A stretch of DNA of 62,714 nt from positions 1 through 62,714 of the forward strand of contig JAKAZV010000004.1 in assembly GCA_021826505.1 (NCBI GenBank), in the 5' to 3' direction. The notes beneath the pieces are model-generated. The model ran no database searches. It was not told the DNA's origin and saw only the letters and a program-made list of their open reading frames with translations. This stretch comes from Acidobacteriota bacterium. GTDB lineage: Bacteria > Acidobacteriota > Terriglobia > Terriglobales > SCQP01. Of the stretch, positions 8,731-54,617 are shown one piece after another. The translations under genes were made by a program, and so were the position numbers. The first letter of the stretch is position 1. Every line of letters starts with the position of its first letter.

Positions 8731-9774
8731 GTGGATAATCTGACACATTCGCTGGTTGGCATCGCGCTCTCGCGGGCCTTTTTCAAGGACAAGGCGCCGC
8801 TGGCGACGACGATGCTTATCGTGGCCGCGAATGCGCCGGATGTGGATGTGTTGTGGTCAATGCGCGGCATTCGCTATATCGAATATCACCGCGGGTTTAC
8901 GCATTCACTGCTGTTTCTGCCGCTGGGCATGCTGCTGATCTCCTGGCTCTGGCGCGGGCTGGCCGGCCGGCTGCAGCGCCGGAAAGGAAGTTGGGACCCG
9001 GCGAAGGGACGCTGGCGCCCGCGGGGAGAAACTGAGGAAGGCCAGAGGAAAAATCCGGTGAGCTGGCGGCTGGGGCTGGCGGCGGGATTGCTGGGCATTG
9101 GCTCGCATCTGCTGATGGATTGGACCAACAGCTACGGCATACGGTTATTGGATCCGCTCAGCCAGCACTGGTTCGCGCTCGACTGGATGCCGATCGTGGA
9201 CCCGTGGCTATGGCTGATTCTGCTGGCATGCCTGACCTTGCCCATGCTGCTGGCCATGGTGCAGCACGAGCAGGGCGGACCGCGCGGCCATTACCGTAAA
9301 AGCGCGGCGGTGGCGCTGCTGGCGATGGGCGCATGGTGGGGCGTGCGGGCCGCGGCGCATCAGCGGGCTCTCGAAAAGCTGCGGCAGGCGCTGGATGAGC
9401 CGGCGGCGAACCGCGCGCTGGCCGCCTACCCAACGTTTACCTCGCCGCTGACCTGGCGGGGAGTGGCGAGCCTGCCGGACCGCTATCAGATCGGAGATAT
9501 CACCGCAGGAAATGGAAAACCGCCGCGGCTGCATGATCTTTATAAACCCGCCGCGACCCCGGCCATTCTGGCGGCGGAGCACACCCGCGCGGCCCGGATT
9601 TTTTTACAATTTGCCCGCGATCCGTGGGTGGAAACGCGGCCCGGCGCGGGAAATACCACGGTGGTGATGATCAGCGATCTACGTTTTGGCACGCCGAAAA
9701 GTTTTCATGGCATGGGCGTGCGAGTGCGCCTGCAGCATGATCTGCGGCCCATGTCAGAACAATTTCGTTTTTAA
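8731..9774 (+). CDS. YdjM-like inner-membrane metal-dependent hydrolase (DUF457)
   Basis: The 347-residue product opens with DNLTHSLVGIALSRAF and contains NAPDVDVLW and the HRGFTHSLLFLPLG motif. These His/Asp residues define the YdjM/DUF457 membrane hydrolase family. Several hydrophobic segments follow (roughly residues 65-82, 112-130, 150-172 and 190-205), then a soluble C-terminal region. The substrate is unknown: a hydrolase role is inferred from the conserved metal-ligand pattern only. The start is GTG, preceded by a purine-rich GAAGAAGAGAAA. It stands alone between ligA and the convergent rpsT. Confidence 0.85.
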   Translation: MDNLTHSLVGIALSRAFFKDKAPLATTMLIVAANAPDVDVLWSMRGIRYIEYHRGFTHSLLFLPLGMLLISWLWRGLAGRLQRRKGSWDPAKGRWRPRGETEEGQRKNPVSWRLGLAAGLLGIGSHLLMDWTNSYGIRLLDPLSQHWFALDWMPIVDPWLWLILLACLTLPMLLAMVQHEQGGPRGHYRKSAAVALLAMGAWWGVRAAAHQRALEKLRQALDEPAANRALAAYPTFTSPLTWRGVASLPDRYQIGDITAGNGKPPRLHDLYKPAATPAILAAEHTRAARIFLQFARDPWVETRPGAGNTTVVMISDLRFGTPKSFHGMGVRVRLQHDLRPMSEQFRF

Positions 9775-9796
9775 GAGGCGCGAAGCGAGGGCAGAA

Positions 9797-10066
9797 TTAT
9801 TTGGCCGCAAGCTGGTTGAACGCCAGCGTCAGGCGGGATTTATGGCGATCGGCGGCGTTATGATGCAATACGCCCTTCTGGATGCCCTTGTCGATGGCGC
9901 TCAGCGTGTCATTGAGCAGGGCGTGCGCGGCGGCCCGGTCGCCGGAGGCGATGGCCTGTTGCAATTTCTTAACCGAGGTGCGCAGGCGGCTGGCATTCGC
10001 GCGGTTGCGCTCGGTGCGGCGTCCGGTCTGGCGGGCGCGTTTTAAAGCGGAGACGTGGTTGGCCAT
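9797..10066 (-). CDS. rpsT: 30S ribosomal protein S20
   Basis: The 89-residue product is basic, helical and of S20 length. It starts ANHVSALKRARQTGRRTERN, has the LNDTLSAIDKGIQKGVLHHN segment near the C terminus, and ends in NQLAAK. S20 binds the 5' domain of 16S rRNA. It is a single-gene unit, convergent with the YdjM-like gene (22-bp gap). Confidence 0.97.
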   Translation of the reverse strand: MANHVSALKRARQTGRRTERNRANASRLRTSVKKLQQAIASGDRAAAHALLNDTLSAIDKGIQKGVLHHNAADRHKSRLTLAFNQLAAK

Positions 10067-41499: not shown

Positions 41500-42867
41500 A
41501 TGTTTGAGCAATTTCCGACCCTGATTGAAAACCTGCTGCTGGGCCGCAGCATCGAGCGCCGGCTGCGCTTTGCGCGCCGGGTGCCGCGCTGGCTGATCGA
41601 AAAAATCCAAATTGCCGAGTTCCAGGAAACGCTGGCCCGGGTGAATCGCCATTCCAGCTTTTACCGCGAGCGCTTTCAGGCGGCGGGCCTGAACCCGGCG
41701 CGGCTGCAGAAACCTGCCGACTTAGGCGATTTTTACACCACCGCCGACGACCTGCGCGCCCAGCCGACGGAGGCCTTTGTCTGCGCACCGCCCCAGATGG
41801 GATTTGAAACCACCGGCACCACGGCCCGCAACAAGCGCCTGTATTTTTCCAATGAAGAGGTGCATGACATTGGCTTTGAGGGGGCCACGGGGCTGTGGAA
41901 CCTGGGCCTGAGACCGGACGACCGCGTGGTGGACGCTTTCGATTACGCCTTCTGGAACGCCGGGGTTACGCTGCTGCATTCGCTCAACGCCATCGGCTGT
42001 TTTCACGTTATCGCCAGCAAGCTGCCGCCGGAAGATTTTTACGAACGCATCCGCGATTACCAATTCAACGTGCTCATCGTGGATACCGCCTGGCTGGTGG
42101 CCTTTACCGAAGTGGCCGAACGGCGCGGAGTCTGGCCGGTGAAGTTCATCCTTTCCGGCAGCGAAAATCTCAGCCCGGCGACTCGCGCCTGGGCGCAGCG
42201 CGTCTGGAACGCGCCCGTCTATCAGGCCTACGGGCAGACCGAATCGCTCGGCGCCACCGGCATCGAATGCCCGGCGCAAAAAGGCTACCACCTGAACGAA
42301 TTCAACTTTATTTTCGAGCTGCGCGACCCCAATCCGGAAGGCTACGGCGAGCTGGTTTATACCACGCTGGTGCGCAAGGTGATGCCGCTGGTGCGCTACC
42401 GCAGCAACGACATTACCCGATTTGTGGATGAGCCCTGCGGCTGCCCGCTCTCGTGCATGCGCCGCATCGACAAGATCGCCGGCCGCGCCGATGAGATCGT
42501 CTCGTGCGGCATGGGCATGATCAGCCCCTGGATTTTCGAAACCTGGCTGGGCGAGGTGGCCGGCCTGGCCGATGACTGGCAAATCGCGGTCACCAGCCAG
42601 GGGCCGCGCGACCGCATCGAGCTGCGGCTGGAACTCAGCGAAAATACGCCACGGCCGCCCCGCGAGATTGAAGCCGCATTGACGGAAAAGCTGGAGCGGC
42701 ACTTTCCTTATTACTTTAAAAATTGGAAGATGGGCATGTACGAGATCGGTTTCCGCTTTTTGCCGCGCGGCGAATTGCGGCCCGGAGGGCCCCGGCGCAA
42801 ACTACGCCGCGTGACGGACGAGCGCGTGCCGGAAGCGGCACGTTCGGCTGTGGCCGGCAGGCCGTAA
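41500..42867 (+). CDS. PaaK-like AMP-forming acyl/aryl ligase, paralogue 1
   Basis: The 455-residue product is an adenylate-forming enzyme of the phenylacetate-CoA ligase (PaaK/CapK) type. The Thr/Gly-rich phosphate loop reads GFETTGTTARNKRLYFSN. AYGQTESLGATGIECP gives the A5-like motif, and VRYRSNDITRF with RIDKIAGRADEIVSCG gives the hinge region. It shares many unusual stretches with the paralogue at 51900, such as FDYAFWNAG. It should activate a carboxylic acid as an adenylate and pass it to CoA or a carrier protein. With four ketosynthase-like genes downstream it may load the starter or tailor the product. It precedes the inositol-phosphate synthase gene by 185 bp. Confidence 0.8.
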   Translation: MFEQFPTLIENLLLGRSIERRLRFARRVPRWLIEKIQIAEFQETLARVNRHSSFYRERFQAAGLNPARLQKPADLGDFYTTADDLRAQPTEAFVCAPPQMGFETTGTTARNKRLYFSNEEVHDIGFEGATGLWNLGLRPDDRVVDAFDYAFWNAGVTLLHSLNAIGCFHVIASKLPPEDFYERIRDYQFNVLIVDTAWLVAFTEVAERRGVWPVKFILSGSENLSPATRAWAQRVWNAPVYQAYGQTESLGATGIECPAQKGYHLNEFNFIFELRDPNPEGYGELVYTTLVRKVMPLVRYRSNDITRFVDEPCGCPLSCMRRIDKIAGRADEIVSCGMGMISPWIFETWLGEVAGLADDWQIAVTSQGPRDRIELRLELSENTPRPPREIEAALTEKLERHFPYYFKNWKMGMYEIGFRFLPRGELRPGGPRRKLRRVTDERVPEAARSAVAGRP

Positions 42868-44412: not shown

Positions 44413-45183
44413 ATGAATACTCCCCCCTTGCAGGACCGCATTGCCATCATTACCGGCGCGGCCCGCGGCATTGGCCGCGGCATCGCGCTGGAACTGGCCC
44501 GGCAAGGCGCCATTCCGGTCATTAATTACGTCACCAGCGGCGAGGCCGCGCGCGAGCTGGCGGCCGAGATTGCCGCCGCCGGCGGCCGGGCCGAACTCTG
44601 CGCCGCCGACGCGGCCGCGCCGGAGGGCATTCAGACGCTGATGAGCTTCGTCAAGGAAAAGTTTGGCGGGCTCGATATATTCATCGCCAACGCGATTGAC
44701 GTCGCCTCCTCGGGACCGGTGCTGCGCGCCCGCGGCGACGCCTGGGAAGCCACGGTGAATAAAAATGTCACCGCCCTGCTGCTGGCGGCGCAAAAAGCCG
44801 CGCCCCTGATGCAGGGCCGGCCGGGCAAAATTCTGGCCATTTCCAGCCTGGGTTCCTCACTCACCATCCCCAATTACGGCGCGGTGGGCGTGACCAAGGC
44901 GGCAACCGAAGCGCTGGTGCGCTATCTGGCGGTGGAGTTAGGGCCCAAGGGCATCAACGTCAACGCGCTATCGGCCGGACCCATTGATACCGACGCGCTC
45001 AAGCTCTATCCCAATTACACCCAGATGAAACAATCGGCGGAAACCACCACCCCGGCGCGGCGCCTGGGCGTACCCGCCGATCTGGCGCCCGTGGCGGCGT
45101 TTCTCTGTTCCGATGCCGCGCAATGGATCCACGGGCAAACCCTGGTTGCCGATGGCGGCCTGTCTTTGTTAACCGTGCGCTGA
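44413..45183 (+). CDS. FabL-like enoyl-ACP reductase (SDR family)
   Basis: The 256-residue short-chain dehydrogenase has TGAARGIGRGIALELA for NAD(P). Its active-site spacing is Y-x6-K (NYGAVGVTKAATEALVRYLA), as in the enoyl-ACP reductases FabI and FabL rather than the Y-x3-K of ketoreductases. The segment NVNALSAGPIDTDALKLYPN and the C-terminal GQTLVADGGLSLL closely resemble Bacillus FabL. It would reduce the enoyl intermediate, so the chain made by this cluster may be saturated. A separate FabG is encoded at 48901. Confidence 0.83.
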   Translation: MNTPPLQDRIAIITGAARGIGRGIALELARQGAIPVINYVTSGEAARELAAEIAAAGGRAELCAADAAAPEGIQTLMSFVKEKFGGLDIFIANAIDVASSGPVLRARGDAWEATVNKNVTALLLAAQKAAPLMQGRPGKILAISSLGSSLTIPNYGAVGVTKAATEALVRYLAVELGPKGINVNALSAGPIDTDALKLYPNYTQMKQSAETTTPARRLGVPADLAPVAAFLCSDAAQWIHGQTLVADGGLSLLTVR

Positions 45184-45247
45184 AGCAAGCCGGCCCTTCA
45201 CCCGGGCGGCCGGAAGCGGATCAATTTTATTTTTGAGGAGACCGTTC

Positions 45248-45730
45248 ATGAGTCAAGCCAACTCGAATATCGAAGAAGTTTCGCATATACGCCAGATCGC
45301 CGATTTGGTGCTGGCGACCCGGCACGATGAAGTGCTGCTGAAGGTGCGTGAGGCCATCGCTGAAGTGCTCGGCTGCGATCTGGACAAGGTCGGGCCCAAT
45401 GCGAGCCTGATGAAAGACCTCAACGCCGAGTCGCTGGATTTTCTGGATCTGCTCTTTCGCCTGGAAGCCGCTTTTGGCGTGAAGATCCCGCGCGGCGGCA
45501 TTCAGCGCGCCACCCAGGGCTCGCTCACCGAGGCCGAGTTCCAGCAGAACGGCATCCTCACCGAAGCCGCGCTGGAGCGGCTGCGCATTCTGATGCCGGA
45601 AGTGGATCCGGCGCGCCTTCAGCCCGGCCTGCCGGCGCGGGAAATACCCGCTCTGTTCACCACCGAAACCTTTGTCCGCCTGGTGGCCTGGCGGCTGGGG
45701 GAAACCGCGGCCGAAGCCGCCAAAAGCTGA
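45248..45730 (+). CDS. Long acyl carrier protein
   Basis: The 160-residue product contains an acyl-carrier domain with the phosphopantetheine Ser in LMKDLNAESLDFLDLLFRLE (Ser62). This domain is flanked by about 25 extra N-terminal residues and a C-terminal extension of about 65 residues with no known domain. ACPs of primary fatty-acid synthesis are near 80 residues, so this one is dedicated to the cluster. GAGGAG at 8 nt before ATG 45248 fixes the start. It sits between the enoyl reductase and the dehydratase. Confidence 0.9.
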   Translation: MSQANSNIEEVSHIRQIADLVLATRHDEVLLKVREAIAEVLGCDLDKVGPNASLMKDLNAESLDFLDLLFRLEAAFGVKIPRGGIQRATQGSLTEAEFQQNGILTEAALERLRILMPEVDPARLQPGLPAREIPALFTTETFVRLVAWRLGETAAEAAKS

Positions 45731-45775: not shown

Positions 45776-46303
45776 ATGCGTTATCTGATGCTCGACCGCA
45801 TCCTGGAGATCGAAGCCGGCCGCTTCGCCGTGGGCCTCAAGTCGCCGGCACTGAGCGAAGACTACTTCGCCGATCACTTTCCCGGCTTTCCCGTGGTGCC
45901 GGGGGTATTGCTGGTCGAGGCCATGGCGCAACTTTCCGGCCGGCTGATCTCCTACACGCTGTGGGTGGAGTCGCGGCGGCAGGCACTGCCAGTGCTGCTG
46001 ACGGTGCAAAATGCGCGGTTCAAGCATTTTGTGCGCCCGGGCGATCGCATTGAGCTGCGCAGCGAATTGCTCGGAATCTCGGATGGCGCCGCCCGCTGCA
46101 AGGCCAGCGCCCGGGTGGGCGAGCGGGTCGCGGCCACGGCCGAAATGATGCTCGGCTTTGACAGCGAAGGCGACAGCAACGTGATTCCCGCCGCCGCGCG
46201 CGCCACGCTCGACCGCTGGGCAGCGGAGGTGAACCGCATTCTGCTCACCGATGCCAAACTTACGCCGGCGCCGCCGCCGGGCGAAACCTATCCCGCCCTA
46301 TGA
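45776..46303 (+). CDS. FabZ-like 3-hydroxyacyl-ACP dehydratase
   Basis: The 175-residue hot-dog-fold protein has catalytic His34 in DHFPGFPVVPGV and Glu48 in LLVEAMAQLSG, the same 14-residue spacing as in FabZ. The start RYLMLDRILEIEAGRF matches family N termini. About 30 residues are added at the C terminus. It would dehydrate the beta-hydroxyacyl chain. The TGA overlaps the next ketosynthase start (ATGA at 46300-46303), so the two are coupled. Confidence 0.9.
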   Translation: MRYLMLDRILEIEAGRFAVGLKSPALSEDYFADHFPGFPVVPGVLLVEAMAQLSGRLISYTLWVESRRQALPVLLTVQNARFKHFVRPGDRIELRSELLGISDGAARCKASARVGERVAATAEMMLGFDSEGDSNVIPAAARATLDRWAAEVNRILLTDAKLTPAPPPGETYPAL

Positions 46304-47607
46304 ACGCCAATGGATATCACGGCCGCCGGGTAGTGGTGACGGGCATGGGCGCCGTCACGCCGATTGGCCACAGCGTGGCCGAGACGTGGCAGGGGCTGCG
46401 CGCCGGCGTGTGCGGTGTTGGCCCCATCACCGTTTTTGACGCACGCAGCTTTGAAACCCGCATTGCCGCCGAAGTCAAGAATTTCGATTTTGCCCGGTTG
46501 CGCGCCAGCCGCGAAATTGCCGAAACCCTGGACCGCAAAAACAGTTTCGGCTATGCCGCCGCGCTCGAAGCCATGCGGGACGCCGGCCTGCTCAAGCCCG
46601 ATGACGAGCCCGCGCTGGAGCCGAGCGAAGCCGGCCGGCTGGGGATATCGCTGGGCACCGAAGGCCGCCGCGACAGCCTGCTGCCGGAATTGGCGCACCG
46701 CAAACTGCTGCCCGCGGACCCGGCCGCACGGCAAGCCGTGCTGGCCCAGGTGCCGCGTTCGGAATATCTGCGCTATTCGCCTTACGGGCTGGAGTTTGCC
46801 CTGGCGCATACCTTCGATGCGCGCGGCCCCATCACGACCATTTCCACCGCCTGCACCTCCAGTTCGCAGGCGCTGGGGTATGCGCTGGAAAAAATCCGCA
46901 CCGGCGAAGCCGATCTCATGCTGGCCGGCGGCGCGGAAAGCCTGATGGAACCCACGCAGGTGGCGGGCTTCATTTTGCTGGGCGCGCTGTCGAAGCGCAA
47001 TGACGATCCCCAGCACGCCTGCCGGCCCTTTGATGCCGAGCGCGACGGCTTCATTCTCGCCGAAGGCGCCGCCATGCTGGTGCTGGAAGACGCCTGGCAT
47101 GCCTATCGCCGGGGCGCCCGGGTTTATGCCGAAATTGCCGGCTTCGGCACCTCGATCAATGCCTACCGCATCACCGATTCGCCGCCCGATGGCCAGGGAC
47201 CGCTGCTGGCCATGCAGGCGGCGCTGGCCGACGCGCGGCTGCGGCCCGAACAGGTTGACTACATCAATGCCCATGGCACGTCCACCATGCAGAATGACGC
47301 CAGCGAGACGCGCGCCATTCAGCGCTGTTTTGGCGAACGCTGGCGCTCGATTCCGGTCAGCTCAACCAAGTCCATGACCGGACACATGGTGAATGCCGCC
47401 GGCGCGATCGAGGCCATTATTTCGGTGCAGGCGATTCGCGAAGGCTATATTCCCCCCACTCTGAATTACGAGCATCCCGACCCGGCCTGCGATCTCGATT
47501 GCGTGCCGAATCAGGGCCGCGAGGCGCGGGTGCGCACGGTGCTTTCCAATTCATTTGGCTTCGGCGGCTCCAATGGAAGCGTGGTGATTCGTGAATATGT
47601 CGCCTGA
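46300..47607 (+). CDS. Beta-ketoacyl-ACP synthase (KAS II type), catalytically intact, KS1
   Basis: The 435-residue thiolase-fold protein has the complete triad: Cys185 in STACTSSSQAL, His325 in INAHGTSTMQND and His362 in STKSMTGHMVNAAGA. It should extend ACP-bound chains with malonyl-ACP. Compared with FabF the N-terminal half carries an insertion around residues 105-150 (RRDSLLPELAHRKLLPADPA) that could shape the chain pocket. It is the first of four ketosynthase-fold genes and overlaps the second by 11-17 bp, so KS1 and KS2 may form a pair. Confidence 0.92.
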   Translation: MNANGYHGRRVVVTGMGAVTPIGHSVAETWQGLRAGVCGVGPITVFDARSFETRIAAEVKNFDFARLRASREIAETLDRKNSFGYAAALEAMRDAGLLKPDDEPALEPSEAGRLGISLGTEGRRDSLLPELAHRKLLPADPAARQAVLAQVPRSEYLRYSPYGLEFALAHTFDARGPITTISTACTSSSQALGYALEKIRTGEADLMLAGGAESLMEPTQVAGFILLGALSKRNDDPQHACRPFDAERDGFILAEGAAMLVLEDAWHAYRRGARVYAEIAGFGTSINAYRITDSPPDGQGPLLAMQAALADARLRPEQVDYINAHGTSTMQNDASETRAIQRCFGERWRSIPVSSTKSMTGHMVNAAGAIEAIISVQAIREGYIPPTLNYEHPDPACDLDCVPNQGREARVRTVLSNSFGFGGSNGSVVIREYVA

Positions 47608-48904
47608 CGGACAACGCCGGGTGGTGATCACCGGCATGGGCGTGCTTTCACCCCTGGGCCACGACCCGCGGGCGCTCTGGCAATCGCTCGCCGCCGGCCA
47701 GAGCGGCATCGGGCCGGTTGAACATCTGAGTCTGGCGCCCTTTCGCAGCCGGGTGGGCGGCGCGGTGCGTAATTTCAACCCGCGCCAGTTCATCGCCGAC
47801 CCCAAGAGCTTCAAGCTCATGACCCGCTCGGTGCGCCTGGGCGTGGCCGCGGCGGAATCGGCGATCGCGGCGAGCGGCTGGAAAGCCGGCGCGGATGACA
47901 ATTTTCGTCTCGCCAGCCTGGTCGGCTCGCCCGGCCATGCCGGCGAACGCGACGAACTGCTGCCCGGGCTGGAGCAAGCCTGGCGCGAGGGCGAACTCAA
48001 TCTGGAGGCCTTTGGAGAGCGGGGCATCTCGGTCACCAATCCACTCTGGTTATTGAAGAGCCTGGCCAATATCGTGCTCTATTTCGTCAGCCTCAAGCTG
48101 GGCGCCCAAGGGTACAACGCCAACTATTGCATGTCGGGCGCCGGCGGCATCATGGCGATCGGCGAAGGCGCGCGCGCGATTGCTTCCAACCGCGCCGATC
48201 TGGCGGTCGCCGGCGGCTATGAGTCGCTGCTGGATGAGGAACGGCTGGAAAGCTTCGAGCGCTCCGGCCTGCTGGTGCTGGAAAGCGGCGAGGATGCCAC
48301 CGCCAGCCGGCCTTTTGACCGCGACCGGCGCGGCTTCGTGCCCGGCGAGGGAGGCGCGTTTGTGGTGCTGGAGGAACTGGGGCATGCCCGGCAGCGCGGC
48401 GCCCATATCTGGGCCGAAGTTCTGGGGTTTGGACTGGCCAATCCGGGGCGCGCCCAGGCGCCATTCGCCGGCCATGAATCCACCGCCGCTTTCTCTTCCG
48501 CCATGCAATCGGCACTGGGCGAAGCCCGGCTGGATGCCTGGGAATTGAATGCCATCTTTGCCCACGGTCTGGGCACGCCGCACGCCGACCGCTGCGAAGC
48601 CGAGGCGATCAAGCAATGCCTGACCGCGCGCGCCGCCTACGTGCCGGTGACCGCGGTGAAATCGCTGAGCGGCAACCTGGCGGCGGGTTCCGGGCCGCTG
48701 GAAGTGATCGCCGCAGTGGGCAGCCTGCAAGCCGACGGTCCGGGCGTGCCCGCGATCGCCAATTGCCGGCATCCCGACCCTGATCTGGGCCTGGATCTGG
48801 TGCGCGGCCGAGCCCGTGCCGGCCAGTGCCAGAAAGTTTTGATTAACTCCGCCAGCCTGTCGGGCGCCACCGCCAGCCTGGTTCTGGGAGGGATAGAAGC
48901 ATGA
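47591..48904 (+). CDS. Ketosynthase-fold protein with Cys-His-Asn site, KS2
   Basis: The 437-residue protein has the KAS fold and keeps Cys180 (NANYCMSGAGGIMAIG) and His325 (FAHGLGTPHAD). The second histidine is replaced by Asn362 in VKSLSGNLAAGSG, counting from GTG 47591; ATG 47597 is an alternative start. A Cys-His-Asn triad is usual in FabH-like, not FabF-like, enzymes. The loop after the Cys is also altered. It could be a starter-condensing enzyme, a decarboxylating partner, or a chain-length subunit paired with KS1. The start overlaps KS1 and the end overlaps fabG (ATGA). Confidence 0.87.
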   Translation: MNMSPDGQRRVVITGMGVLSPLGHDPRALWQSLAAGQSGIGPVEHLSLAPFRSRVGGAVRNFNPRQFIADPKSFKLMTRSVRLGVAAAESAIAASGWKAGADDNFRLASLVGSPGHAGERDELLPGLEQAWREGELNLEAFGERGISVTNPLWLLKSLANIVLYFVSLKLGAQGYNANYCMSGAGGIMAIGEGARAIASNRADLAVAGGYESLLDEERLESFERSGLLVLESGEDATASRPFDRDRRGFVPGEGGAFVVLEELGHARQRGAHIWAEVLGFGLANPGRAQAPFAGHESTAAFSSAMQSALGEARLDAWELNAIFAHGLGTPHADRCEAEAIKQCLTARAAYVPVTAVKSLSGNLAAGSGPLEVIAAVGSLQADGPGVPAIANCRHPDPDLGLDLVRGRARAGQCQKVLINSASLSGATASLVLGGIEA

Positions 48905-49659
48905 CCCCGGCTCCTTCTGCGCAATTGCACGACCGTGCGGCTCTGGTAACCGGCGCCGGCCGCGGGATTGGCCGCGCTATTGCTCTGCGCCTGGCCGCCG
49001 CGGGCGCCCGGGTGGCAATCAACTACCGGGCCAGCCGACAGGAAGCAGAAGCTTTAGCCGGCGAAATCACCGCCGCCGGCGGCCGGGCCGAAATTTTTCC
49101 CGCCGATGTCAGCCAGCCCGCCGAGGCCCAGGCGCTGATCGAAGCGGTCCACAAAACCATGGGCCGGCTCGACATTCTGGTCAATAACGCCGGCGTCATC
49201 CGCGACGGCCTGCTCATCAGCCTTGAGGATGAAGACTGGCGCACGGTGATCGCCACCAATCTCGACAGCGTTTTTTACTGCTGCCGCGCCGCGGCGCGGA
49301 TCATGATCCGGCAGCGTTTCGGCCGCATTATCAACATGTCGTCGGTGGCCGGCACCCGTCCCAACCGCGGACAGGTGAACTACGCCGCATCCAAAGGGGG
49401 CATCAACGCCCTGACTCGCGCATTGGCGGCCGAACTGGCCAGCCGCAATATCACGGTGAATGCCGTGGCGCCGGGCGTGATCGAAACCGAAATGACCCAG
49501 GCGATCCGAGATGCGGCCCACGATCAGATTCTCGCCAGCATCGGGCTCAAGCGGCTGGGCCGGGTTGAGGATATTGCCGGCGTAGTAGCCTTTTTAGCTT
49601 CCGACGACGCGGCTTATATCACCGGCGAAATATTGCACGTGGATGGCGGCCTGCGCTGA
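48901..49659 (+). CDS. fabG: 3-oxoacyl-ACP reductase (FabG type)
   Basis: The 252-residue SDR has the NADP loop VTGAGRGIGRAIALRL, NNAGVIRDG, catalytic Ser-Tyr-Lys in MSSVAGTRPNRGQVNYAASK (Y-x3-K) and the FabG-like end VDGGLR. It reduces the beta-keto group after each condensation. The ATG overlaps the KS2 stop. Together with the FabZ-like and FabL-like enzymes it completes a full reduction cycle within the cluster. It is probably a cluster-dedicated paralogue rather than the primary FabG. Confidence 0.92.
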   Translation: MTPAPSAQLHDRAALVTGAGRGIGRAIALRLAAAGARVAINYRASRQEAEALAGEITAAGGRAEIFPADVSQPAEAQALIEAVHKTMGRLDILVNNAGVIRDGLLISLEDEDWRTVIATNLDSVFYCCRAAARIMIRQRFGRIINMSSVAGTRPNRGQVNYAASKGGINALTRALAAELASRNITVNAVAPGVIETEMTQAIRDAAHDQILASIGLKRLGRVEDIAGVVAFLASDDAAYITGEILHVDGGLR

Positions 49660-49722: not shown

Positions 49723-50634
49723 ATGAAAACTTTCCGCCCAGTTGTCATTACCGGCCAGGGCTGGCTATTGCCGCCCGGGGTGGAACTGCGCCAGTTTCAC
49801 CCGCAGGCAACGGCCCCGGCGGCGGAATTTGCGCCGGCCCGTTTGCGGGACTTTGCCGCCGGTGATTATGTGCGCGACCCGAAAGTGCTGCGCGCGATGA
49901 ATCGCCTGTTTCAGGTCGCGGCCGCGGCCGCCGTGCTGGCCATGCGCGATGCCGGCTTTCAGCTTGCCCGCGATCTGACCGGTGCGGGGCATGATCCCGC
50001 CCGCTGCGGAACCGCCGTGGCCATGAGCGAAATTTCTCCGCTCACCCAGAATCTGCTGGACGCGGTCATCGCATGCAGCCCCGGCGGACGGTTTGACCTG
50101 GCGGCCTTTGGCGAAATTGCCCGGCATCAGCTTCACCCTTTTCGCCGTCTGACGATGCTGCCCAATATGGCGGCTGCGCACATTTCTCTGTTATTCGGCT
50201 TGCAAGGCCCCAGCTATACCCTCGATTCCGGCATCACGGCCGGCATGCAGGCGATCCGCGAAGCCTATTGGGCGATTGCCGGCGACAAAGCGGATCTGAT
50301 GGTTTGTGAAGCCGCCGACAGTCCTGAAAACGCCTTGCGCCGCGCCGCAACCCAGGAAGCGGCCGGGGCGCTGGTGCTGGAGGCGGAAGCGTCCGCCCAG
50401 GCGCGGCAGGCCCGCATTCTGGCGCGGGTGCGGGCGCAGCCGGAATACCCCTGTACGGCTCCGGTTTCGGGTTCCTGCGCGGCGCCGGCCGCGGGCAGCT
50501 TGCTTGCAGTGCTGGCCAGCCTGTGCGAGATCGGTCTGGATCCACCGCAATCGCTGCCCGGCCTGGAATTATTTCCCCCCGCATCAACAGCCGAGACCGT
50601 ATCCAGCCTGACTCCGCGGGAGGGCAGAGCATGA
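49723..50634 (+). CDS. Short, inactive ketosynthase-like protein, KS3
   Basis: The 303-residue product resembles the N-terminal half and part of the C-terminal half of a ketosynthase. The nucleophile segment reads GPSYTLDSGITAGMQAIREA, with the Cys position occupied by a non-Cys residue (Ile by my alignment). The HGTGT and GHxxxAAG motifs are missing. The frame is open and ends in an ATGA overlap with KS4, so it looks like a maintained gene and not decay. It may act as a non-catalytic partner, like chain-length factors of type II polyketide synthases, but is shorter than those (about 400 residues). Confidence 0.75.
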   Translation: MKTFRPVVITGQGWLLPPGVELRQFHPQATAPAAEFAPARLRDFAAGDYVRDPKVLRAMNRLFQVAAAAAVLAMRDAGFQLARDLTGAGHDPARCGTAVAMSEISPLTQNLLDAVIACSPGGRFDLAAFGEIARHQLHPFRRLTMLPNMAAAHISLLFGLQGPSYTLDSGITAGMQAIREAYWAIAGDKADLMVCEAADSPENALRRAATQEAAGALVLEAEASAQARQARILARVRAQPEYPCTAPVSGSCAAPAAGSLLAVLASLCEIGLDPPQSLPGLELFPPASTAETVSSLTPREGRA

Positions 50635-51893
50635 ATCGGGTCGTCATTACCGGCATGGGCGTGATCTCGCCCCTGGGTCTCGATCTCGAAACCACCCGCA
50701 CCGCGCTGTTTGCCGGCGCCAGCGGCATTCGCCATATCCGCCAGTTTGACGCGCGGCAATTTCCCGTGCGCATTGCGGGAGAAGTCAATGACCCCACGCT
50801 TCCCGACGCCTCGGCGCCTGGCCTGCCCCGCATGCGGGCGCTGGCGCAGCGCGCGGTGCAAAGCGCGCTGGCCGATGCCGGACTGCCCGCAGCCGCGTGG
50901 GACGCGGCCGACGGCGTGCGGCCGGACAGGCATCCGCGCCATGCGCTGGCGTGGTCGCTGGGTAAACAGTCGCTCAATGTCGCGCAACTGGCAGACGCCA
51001 TTTCCGGGCTTTCCCACCCTCCCCAGATCCAGGCCGCGGGCTGGCCGGCTGAATTCATTCAGGAATGGGAAGATCGCGAGCCCGCTGCCTGGCTGCGCGA
51101 ACTGGGCCAGGCCACCGGCGCCGCCGGCCCGGCCTATTGCTGTTATACCGCCTGCGCCTCCGGCAACGATGCTTTGGGCATCGGCAAGCGGCTGATCGAG
51201 CGCGGCGAAGCCGATCTGGTTTTAGCCGGCGCCGCCGACAGCCAGGTGCAACCGCTCAGCCTGCTGGAATATGACCTGCTCGACGCGCTGGCGCAGGGCG
51301 AGCCGGAGCAGGCCTGCCGGCCGTTTGACCGCTGGCGCAGCGGCTTTGTGGTGGGGGAAGGCGCGGCGGTTCTGGTTCTGGAGTCGGAAGAGCATGCCCG
51401 CCGCCGCGGCGCGCGTCTGCGCGGCCGCCTCACCGGATACGGCAGCGCGCTTGATTGTTACGGCTTGACCAAATGCCATCCCGAGGGGCGCGGCGCCGCA
51501 CAGGCGATTGAGGCAGCGCTGGCCGACGCCGGCCGCTCTCCGGCGGAGATCGGCTATATCAATGCCCACGGCACCGGCACGGTGCTCAACGACCGGGCTG
51601 AATCCGCCGCCATTCACCGCGTCTGGGGCGCCCGCGCGACCCGCATTCCGGTGAGCTCGACCAAGGCCATGACCGGCCATCTGATCGCCGCCGCCTCGGC
51701 CGTGGAAGCGGTGCTGACGCTGCTGGCGCTACAGGAAAAAGTGCTGCCCCCGACCCTGAACTATTCCGTTCCCGATCCTGAATGCGAACTAGCCATCGTG
51801 CGCACCGTACAGCCGCTGGAATTTCATATCGCCATGTCCAATGGCTTCGGTTTTGGCGGCCAGAATTCCGCTCTGATCCTGGAGGCTGCGTAA
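50631..51893 (+). CDS. Beta-ketoacyl-ACP synthase (KAS II type), catalytically intact, KS4
   Basis: The 420-residue protein has Cys in CCYTACASGNDALGIG, His in INAHGTGTVLND and His in STKAMTGHLIAAASA, so the triad is complete. It starts NRVVITGMGVISPLGLDLET. The ATG at 50631 overlaps the KS3 stop (ATGA), pairing the active KS4 with the inactive KS3 much as KS and chain-length factor genes are paired in type II polyketide clusters. The frame is open upstream to 50523, but that stretch is KS3. It should elongate ACP-bound chains. Confidence 0.92.
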   Translation: MNRVVITGMGVISPLGLDLETTRTALFAGASGIRHIRQFDARQFPVRIAGEVNDPTLPDASAPGLPRMRALAQRAVQSALADAGLPAAAWDAADGVRPDRHPRHALAWSLGKQSLNVAQLADAISGLSHPPQIQAAGWPAEFIQEWEDREPAAWLRELGQATGAAGPAYCCYTACASGNDALGIGKRLIERGEADLVLAGAADSQVQPLSLLEYDLLDALAQGEPEQACRPFDRWRSGFVVGEGAAVLVLESEEHARRRGARLRGRLTGYGSALDCYGLTKCHPEGRGAAQAIEAALADAGRSPAEIGYINAHGTGTVLNDRAESAAIHRVWGARATRIPVSSTKAMTGHLIAAASAVEAVLTLLALQEKVLPPTLNYSVPDPECELAIVRTVQPLEFHIAMSNGFGFGGQNSALILEAA

Positions 51894-51899
51894 TTTCTC

Positions 51900-53249
51900 A
51901 TGGTCCTGTCTCTGGTTGAACCCGCATTTGACTTGCTCGACCGCAGTCTGCTGGGCTCGCCCCGGCGCCGGCTGCGGGTGGCCGGCATGCTGCCGACCAC
52001 CCTGGTGGACCGTTTGCAGCGCGCCAAGCTCCATCGCCTGGTGCGCTATGCCGGCAAACATTCGCCCTTTTATCGCGAGAAGTTCCGCGAGTACGGCATC
52101 AATCCCCGCCACGTATACACGCACGCGGATCTGGGCGATTTTTTTACCACGCCCGAAGATTTGAAATCGCGTCCGGTCGAGGACTTTCTCTGCGCCCGCC
52201 CCGAGGCCGGCTTTGAAACCACCGGCACCAGCCTGGGCGTGAATAAGCGAGTGTATTTTTCCAATCAGGAAATGCTCGACTACGGCCGGGACGGCGCGGC
52301 CGGACTCTACAACCTGGGATTGCGGCGCGAAGACATCGTTCTCGACGGCTTTGATTATTCCTTCTGGAACGCCCCCTTTACCGCCTATTTTTCCCTGCAG
52401 TACATGCGCTGTTTCCACGTCATCGGGGCCTTCATCGAACCCCAGGAGCTTTATGACCGGATGAAGGTGTACCGCCCCAACGTCATTCTCGGCGTGCCCA
52501 CCCATATGGTCCGGGTGACGGAAGTGGCCGAGCGGGAAGGCGTCTGGCCGGTTAAATTTCTTTTGCTGGGCGGAGAAAACCTGAGCGAACGCACGCGCGC
52601 CTACATCGAATCGGTCTGGCGCGGGGCGCGGGTGTTTCTTACCTATGGCCAAACGGAAAATTTTGGCATGACCGGAGTCGAGTGCCCGCAAAAAGGCGGC
52701 TATCATGTCAGCGGCCTGGGCCTGGTTTCGGAAATCATACAACCCGACGAGCAGGGGTACGGCGAATACGTGTACAGCACCCTCGACCGCACGGTCATGC
52801 CCTTCATCCGGTATCGGTCGGCCGACATTACCCGCTGGACCCGCAACGGCGGCTGCACGTGCGGCCTGCGGGTGATGCCGCGGCTCGACAAGATCATCGG
52901 CCGCTGTGATGAGCTGATCAACTGCTCCATGGGCAATATCAGCCCCTACTGGTTTGAGGAAATCCTGCGCGATATTCCCGCCGTGGGCAATGAATGGCAG
53001 GTCAAGGTGCGCCGCGGCGACCGCGACGACATCATTGAATTCCATCTTGAGCTCAATGAATCCGGGGCGGAAGGCGCCGTGCGCGAACAGATCTTCCGCA
53101 ACATCGAAACCCGCTTTCCCGACTGCTGGCGCTATTACACCAAGGGATTTTTCGAGTTTGATTTCCACTTTCATGCCCGGCATACGCTGAGCAATGGCCG
53201 TAAACTGCGGCGGCTGATTGACGCGCGCAAGGACGCCTGGAGCCAATAA
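51900..53249 (+). CDS. PaaK-like AMP-forming acyl/aryl ligase, paralogue 2
   Basis: The 449-residue product is a clear paralogue of the ligase at 41500: GFETTGTSLGVNKRVYFSN, LDGFDYSFWNAPF, TYGQTENFGMTGVECPQKGG and YRSADITRWTRNGGC follow the same order. Near the hinge it has a Cys cluster (CTCGLRVMPRLDKI, RCDELINC) like the one in other PaaK proteins. Two ligases at the two ends of the cluster suggest that two different acids are activated, or that one loads and the other releases. It begins 6 bp after KS4. Confidence 0.8.
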   Translation: MVLSLVEPAFDLLDRSLLGSPRRRLRVAGMLPTTLVDRLQRAKLHRLVRYAGKHSPFYREKFREYGINPRHVYTHADLGDFFTTPEDLKSRPVEDFLCARPEAGFETTGTSLGVNKRVYFSNQEMLDYGRDGAAGLYNLGLRREDIVLDGFDYSFWNAPFTAYFSLQYMRCFHVIGAFIEPQELYDRMKVYRPNVILGVPTHMVRVTEVAEREGVWPVKFLLLGGENLSERTRAYIESVWRGARVFLTYGQTENFGMTGVECPQKGGYHVSGLGLVSEIIQPDEQGYGEYVYSTLDRTVMPFIRYRSADITRWTRNGGCTCGLRVMPRLDKIIGRCDELINCSMGNISPYWFEEILRDIPAVGNEWQVKVRRGDRDDIIEFHLELNESGAEGAVREQIFRNIETRFPDCWRYYTKGFFEFDFHFHARHTLSNGRKLRRLIDARKDAWSQ

Positions 53250-53315
53250 AGCGCAAGCACCCGCGGAGTGCGCGCGGCCGTTCCGCCTGCATTGAAGACA
53301 CGAGGAGATTTCGGT

Positions 53316-54617
53316 ATGGCATCAAAACTGGCGCTGCTCGGCGGCCCGCGGGAAGTTCCGCAGGCCGCGGAAAAAACTCATTGGCCGGTCATTACCGCGG
53401 AAGACAAAGCGGCGGTGCAAGCCGCACTCGACCGCGGCGTGCTGTGGGCCATGACCACCCCCAGCGGCCTGCATTGTCCCGAGCAGGACGCGCTCGAGCG
53501 CGAATTCGCGGAATTTCTCGGCGTACGCCATGTACTGGCCGTCAATGCCGGCACCGCCGCGCTGCATATGGCGCTGGCGGCGGCCGGAGTTGAGGCCGGC
53601 GATGAGGTCATCACCTCGGCTTTTTCCTTTCTGGCCACGCCCGCGGCCATCCTGCACGCCGGCGCCATCCCGGTATTTGCCGATATCGATCCCCGCACCT
53701 TTAATCTCACTCCCGACGCCATCGCGGAAAAAATCACGCCCCGCACCCGGGCCATTCTCGCCGTGGATATCCATGGCCTGTGCGCAGACTGGAACCCCAT
53801 ACTGGCCCTGGCCCGCAAGCACCATTTAATCGTGCTGGAAGATGCCTGCCAGGCTCCCGGCGCCAGCTACCATGGCCGCCCCGCCGGCAGCTTCGGGCTG
53901 GCCTCCGGCTTCAGCGTCAACGGCACCAAGAATTTTGCCGTAGGCGAGGGCGGTTTTCTGGCCACCAACGATGATGGGATTTACGCCCGCGCCGGATGGA
54001 TCAAGCAGGTTGGGGAAAATTTCCCTTCCGGCCATCCCATCATGAGCCAGCAGAAATACCTGGCCTGGAATTACCGCGTGCAGGAAATGCCCTGCGCTTT
54101 TGCGCGTTCGCAGCTGCGCCGCCTGGCGGGCTATAACGCCACGGCCCGCCGCAACGCCGCCATTCTTGAGACCTATCTGCGGGAGATTCCCGGCCTGCGC
54201 GCGCCCTACGTGCCCGAAGGCTTTGTCTCGGTTTATCACAAATACCGCATCACGCTGGCGCCGGAAGAACTGGAGACCCGCCTGCGCGGCAGCGCGCTGC
54301 GCGACGCCTTCATGGCCGCGCTGGCGGCCGAGGGCGTGGATGTGGATCTGTGGGGCACGGCGCCGCTGGCCGCGCATCCGATGATCGCCGGCCATCACGG
54401 CTTCGGCCACGGTTTTCCCTGGTCACTGCACGGCGCGCCGGAGGCTTACGCCTATCGCGCCGAAGATTATCCGGTCACGCTCGCAATGTTTGCCAATAGT
54501 TTTTGCCTGACCAACGACGAATTTCCCATCTATGCCCAGCCCGAAGCGCTGATGCATGCCTATGGCCGCGCCCTGGCCAAAGTTGCGGCTCATGCCGCGG
54601 AATTGAAAGCCCGCTGA
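53316..54617 (+). CDS. DegT/DnrJ/EryC1/StrS family PLP-dependent aminotransferase
   Basis: The 433-residue product is a fold-type I aminotransferase. NAGTAALHMALAAAGVEAGD binds the phosphate, VLEDACQAPGASYHG holds the cofactor Asp, and the Schiff-base Lys is in SVNGTKNFAVGEGG. The family usually transaminates keto-sugars or cyclitol ketones (StrS acts on scyllo-inosose). An inositol-derived ketone is therefore a possible substrate, given ino1 in the same operon, but no inositol dehydrogenase is visible. ATG 53316 has GAGGAG at 8 nt; the upstream open frame is ignored. It is the last gene of the cluster. Confidence 0.88.
   Translation: MASKLALLGGPREVPQAAEKTHWPVITAEDKAAVQAALDRGVLWAMTTPSGLHCPEQDALEREFAEFLGVRHVLAVNAGTAALHMALAAAGVEAGDEVITSAFSFLATPAAILHAGAIPVFADIDPRTFNLTPDAIAEKITPRTRAILAVDIHGLCADWNPILALARKHHLIVLEDACQAPGASYHGRPAGSFGLASGFSVNGTKNFAVGEGGFLATNDDGIYARAGWIKQVGENFPSGHPIMSQQKYLAWNYRVQEMPCAFARSQLRRLAGYNATARRNAAILETYLREIPGLRAPYVPEGFVSVYHKYRITLAPEELETRLRGSALRDAFMAALAAEGVDVDLWGTAPLAAHPMIAGHHGFGHGFPWSLHGAPEAYAYRAEDYPVTLAMFANSFCLTNDEFPIYAQPEALMHAYGRALAKVAAHAAELKAR

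Follow-up and report, generated by a model that had tools for sequence, protein, structure and literature searches.

The gene KS3 (positions 49723 to 50634, forward strand) encodes a half-size, non-catalytic ketosynthase (KS) homologue that resembles chain-length factors (CLFs) and adjoins the gene of an active ketosynthase, KS4. Both genes lie in the window analyzed here, a stretch of 62,714 nucleotides from an Acidobacteriota bacterium (assembly GCA_021826505.1, contig JAKAZV010000004.1, positions 1 to 62,714 of the forward strand). The sequence of KS3, its conservation and the selection on it, its place in the phylogeny, its rate covariation, and the coupling of the two genes together make it quite likely that KS3 is a CLF-like subunit, translated along with KS4 and joined to it in a heterodimer of the KS:CLF type, where it would complete the KS4 substrate tunnel and tune chain length or starter choice. 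This agrees with the original prediction, which had proposed that KS3 may be a minimal CLF. A minimal CLF is already known from aryl polyene pathways, and KS3 is probably a further, separate example.

The KS3 reading frame is intact from the ATG at 49723 to the TGA at 50634 and encodes 303 residues. KS3 had a single match in Pfam, to the N-terminal ketosynthase domain (PF00109; E value, 3.5e-12), and none to the C-terminal domain (PF02801); both domains were matched in KS1, KS2, and KS4. In an alignment of the four KS types of the family, Ile171 (TLDSGITAG; codon at 50233 to 50235) occupied the position of the nucleophile Cys, and the regions of both His motifs and the Lys were missing from KS3. 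The protein is 117 to 134 amino acids (aa) shorter than KS4 (420 aa), KS1 (435 aa), and KS2 (437 aa). The original prediction, which had described an intact frame about 120 residues short and devoid of the Cys and both His motifs, was accurate on these points, including the coordinates. The size loss combines an internal deletion of ∼33 residues inside the N-terminal domain, covering the RPFDxxRDGFVxGEG loop, with a C-terminal truncation that, relative to a full KS, removed the second thiolase half but for a short remnant. This remnant (residues 234 to 284; 50422 to 50574) ends before the first His motif and has a predicted strand (234 to 238), helix (258 to 269), and two further strands (276 to 278 and 281 to 284). 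The tail evolves faster (omega, 0.39). A decarboxylating KSQ identity was also considered and was ruled out from the sequence, which has neither the Gln nor the His.

We compared 14 family genomes, including this one; 11 carried a complete KS3, and the contigs of the other 3 end in or before the gene. All 11 complete copies were short (263 to 341 aa, with start codons picked by alignment), intact, and Cys-less, and all were without the C-terminal domain; the Cys position held I, T, A, or V in every copy. Among them we counted 50 invariant positions and zero stops or frameshifts. Relative to the congeneric genome, the omega of KS3 was 0.176 (95% interval, 0.12 to 0.26), and over four genome pairs dN/dS ranged from 0.18 to 0.21, which is above most neighboring genes yet clearly purifying. 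Given this purifying selection and the retention of the gene in every complete family copy, the KS3 frame is not a product of chance. The short form is ancestral to the acidobacterial family and is maintained, neither decaying nor locally shortened. Thus, the word "relic" in the original prediction does not fit, but its view of a maintained gene holds: the other genomes with a complete copy keep the same short form, and the full-length homologues that would have spoken against it were found in none of them.

KS3 does evolve faster than its neighbors (mean tree distance, 1.83 versus 0.57 to 1.12), and the length of its tail varies, as might be expected of a degenerating pseudogene kept only through its position between essential genes. 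However, the low omega, the undamaged frames, and the invariant positions leave this explanation with almost no plausibility, and a recent truncation is likewise rejected by the uniformly short copies and omega. At an E value of 1e-12, a KS3-like gene was not found elsewhere in the order among the genomes searched, and a phylum-wide profile search brought up nothing but distant CLF- or KS-like proteins of greater length. A scan of genome contigs for relatives recovered only a same-genus contig and two distant KSs. Spread by viruses was considered and rejected, with no relative among viral contigs.

The stop codon of KS3 overlaps the start codon of KS4 (50631 to 51893), as originally described, in an ATGA (50631 to 50634), and translational coupling is expected from this arrangement. 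The 4-nucleotide overlap is present in 7 of the 11 genomes, and in the other 4 the KS4 start lies 1 to 2 nucleotides after the KS3 stop. The tight coupling to an active KS that had been predicted is supported. KS4 retains the Cys, two His, and Lys. We examined rate covariation by a mirror-tree analysis, in which evolutionary distances were correlated after the shared signal had been removed. Of the 21 operon gene pairs, KS3 and KS4 showed the strongest covariation (r = 0.87; Mantel P = 0.0006; about 0.013 after Bonferroni correction), although eight genomes are few for such statistics. The possibility that KS1 is the main partner of KS3, or that KS3 alternates between KS1 and KS4 in different heterodimers, is unlikely when weighed against these results: adjacency and the ATGA link KS3 to KS4, and the covariation of KS3 with KS4 is far stronger than that with KS1. 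What speaks for it is that the covariation with KS1 is weakly positive (0.34; P = 0.12), along with the neighborhood of the nearest KS relatives of KS4 outside the family (loci L067 and L068), which adjoin CLFs that group with KS2 and not with KS3. The ancestral pairing of KS4 may therefore have been reshuffled, and this counts against a KS3:KS4 pair.

Residues 137 to 166 of KS3 (LHPFRRLTMLPNMAAAHISLLFGLQGPSYT; 50131 to 50220) are its most conserved part, with a conservation of 0.88 compared with 0.56 for the rest of the protein; 0.4% of same-size windows were as conserved. The segment aligns with a helix and strand that we take to make the dimer interface in ketosynthases. It is also highly conserved in KS2 and is unremarkable in KS1 and KS4. 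This pattern is expected under obligate heterodimers, where the inactive subunit keeps the surface needed by the active one. A non-enzymatic scaffold or ACP-docking protein of the synthase complex, as opposed to a chain-length-determining KS half, could also do without a catalytic half, and the retained surface could in principle dock other partners. We nevertheless consider this role improbable, since the best-conserved part of KS3 is the interface segment itself and KS4 covaries with KS3.

We built two trees from the N-terminal domain, with no actinobacterial CLF among the sequences. In both, KS3 fell together with KS2 and CLF-like neighbors of active KSs in other Acidobacteria (support, 98/94 and 96/93). 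A sister relation of KS3 and KS4 was rejected (p-AU, 0.009); hence, KS3 did not arise as a tandem duplicate of KS4. KS3 has in common with CLFs its homology to the KS N-terminal domain, the loss of the Cys, the coupling to an adjacent active KS, and its place in the tree. In classical CLFs the Cys is usually replaced by Gln, and we count the lack of this residue in KS3 against the CLF assignment. KS3 also departs from the full two-half thiolase fold of CLFs, with no PF02801 match and a single half in its predicted structure. The AlphaFold model (mean pLDDT, 78; pTM, 0.78) consists of one thiolase half, the strand-helix-strand remnant, and a low-confidence tail. In Foldseek searches with this model, the hits were FabF-type ketosynthases and an anthraquinone synthase CLF, AntE. 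We count the single thiolase half and the recovery of ketosynthases in favor of a half-size CLF acting in a heterodimer, and the moderate TM-scores, only about 0.55, against it. The predicted model of KS4 was poor (pLDDT, 67) and was left out of the analysis.

The original prediction had held that CLFs are full length, and here it was mistaken: ApeC of the aryl polyene pathways is a crystallized CLF with one thiolase domain (PMC8358021, PMC12664062). In the Acinetobacter ApeO:ApeC structure, the CLF consists of this one domain, and just a few strands are left of the second one (PMC8358021); Xenorhabdus ApeC has 211 residues compared with 383 in the actinorhodin CLF (PMC12664062). ApeC (PF13723; ApeO:ApeC, PDB 6QSP) thus resembles KS3 in being half-size and non-catalytic, in retaining the first thiolase half with a few strands of the second, and in having an active KS partner, as proposed for KS3. 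This shared architecture, together with tests on two trees that did not reject a clade uniting KS3 with ApeC (p-AU, 0.07 and 0.20), would suit a true ApeC-family member acquired with an aryl-polyene-type cluster. Against such an origin, which we regard as having little probability, KS3 has no match to PF13723 in Pfam, where E. coli ApeC scores 225 bits; by hhalign, the KS3 profile matched KS2 with an E value of 3.5e-24 and ApeC-like proteins with 0.42; and KS4 fell outside the ApeO group in the tree. By Pfam and hhalign, the two proteins belong to different sequence families, and they sit in different operons. In the E. coli cluster the ApeC gene is separated from that of ApeO, unlike KS3, which is immediately next to its KS gene, and the aryl polyene context of that cluster (two ACPs, LolA, an MMPL exporter, a glycosyltransferase, and acyltransferases) was not matched by the KS3 operon. 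As a CLF-like protein, KS3 probably shrank independently of ApeC.

Other CLFs resemble KS3 to different degrees. The KS-beta subunits or CLFs of type II PKS (actinorhodin CLF, 1TQY chain B) are likewise inactive KS paralogues beside an active KS, and KS3 groups with CLF-like proteins; unlike KS3, the full-length forms have retained the two thiolase halves, and the actinorhodin CLF has 383 residues (PMC12664062). AntE from Photorhabdus (6SMO chain C) is a non-actinobacterial and somewhat shortened CLF (371-aa chain, 347 seen) and was recovered with KS3 both by sequence and by fold, but it is much longer. Two acidobacterial CLF-like proteins, at loci L067 (366 aa) and L071 (326 aa), have undergone a similar loss, either of catalytic residues or of the match to the C-terminal domain, and adjoin an active KS, although they are longer than KS3 and lie in unrelated operons. 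These intermediate lengths suggest that shortening of CLFs is not rare. The L071 cluster, from another acidobacterial genome, encodes two short KS-like proteins, of 297 and 326 aa (382 to 1275 and 8950 to 9930), and the second of these matches both PF00109 and PF13723.

KS3 is part of a twelve-gene operon that is conserved in the same order wherever the contigs of the 14 family genomes allow. All genes are on the forward strand, beginning with the PaaK-like adenylate-forming enzyme AL1 (41500 to 42867), a myo-inositol-1-phosphate synthase-like protein (PF07994 and PF01658; 43053 to 44342), the SDR reductase KRa (44413 to 45183), an acyl carrier protein (ACP) with a C-terminal extension (45233 to 45730), and a FabA/FabZ-like dehydratase (45776 to 46303). 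These are followed by KS1 (46300 to 47607), an active ketosynthase by domain match and alignment; KS2 (47591 to 48904); the SDR ketoreductase KRb (48901 to 49659); KS3 and KS4; the PaaK-like enzyme AL2 (51900 to 53249); and a DegT/DnrJ/EryC1/StrS aminotransferase (53268 to 54617). KS2 falls in the CLF clade and is inactive (Gly183 replaces the Cys and Asn362 the second His) yet full length in all orthologues. The operon thus carries one full-length and one half-size CLF-like protein. Because KS2 is both inactive and full length, the KS proteins of the operon seem to make up two pairs of the KS:CLF type, KS1:KS2 and KS4:KS3, of which KS1:KS2 is probably a conventional full-length pair.

We propose that KS3 and KS4 would be translated together and assemble into a KS:CLF-type heterodimer. 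KS3 has retained the first thiolase half, which would bear the dimer interface, and has lost the second, the source of the catalytic His in a KS. It would complete and cap the KS4 substrate tunnel and so may set chain length or the choice of starter, with KS4 doing the chemistry through its own Cys-His-His. Residues 104 to 111 of KS3 are a candidate gate. Chain extension would take place on the operon ACP, and the two SDRs and the dehydratase, as annotated, would do the remaining processing. A literature search for this operon type returned no matching description. From the ligases, the inositol-phosphate-synthase-like protein, and the aminotransferase, one might speculate that the product involves an activated acid and an amino-cyclitol or amino-sugar-like group.

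We consider it an even call whether KS3 represents a new half-size CLF lineage, the second independent halving and one fixed in an acidobacterial family, in which full-length and half-size KS:CLF pairs work on one ACP and, with the inositol-phosphate-synthase and aminotransferase genes, make an undescribed product. If the halving was independent of ApeC, two lineages would show that a type II ketosynthase can run with a CLF reduced to its first thiolase half, and the minimal requirements of chain-length control would become testable. The full-length KS2 beside the half-size KS3 makes both partner sizes comparable within one pathway. A form such as KS3 would escape genome mining in which a full-length CLF or PF13723 is a requirement.

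Three further features of the operon were noted. Its ACP is 165 aa long, with a conserved extension of ∼75 residues beyond the ACP domain. AL1 and AL2 are paralogous and flank the synthase genes on both sides. In all family genomes with a contig that extends to it, the myo-inositol-1-phosphate synthase-like gene lies inside the ketosynthase operon.
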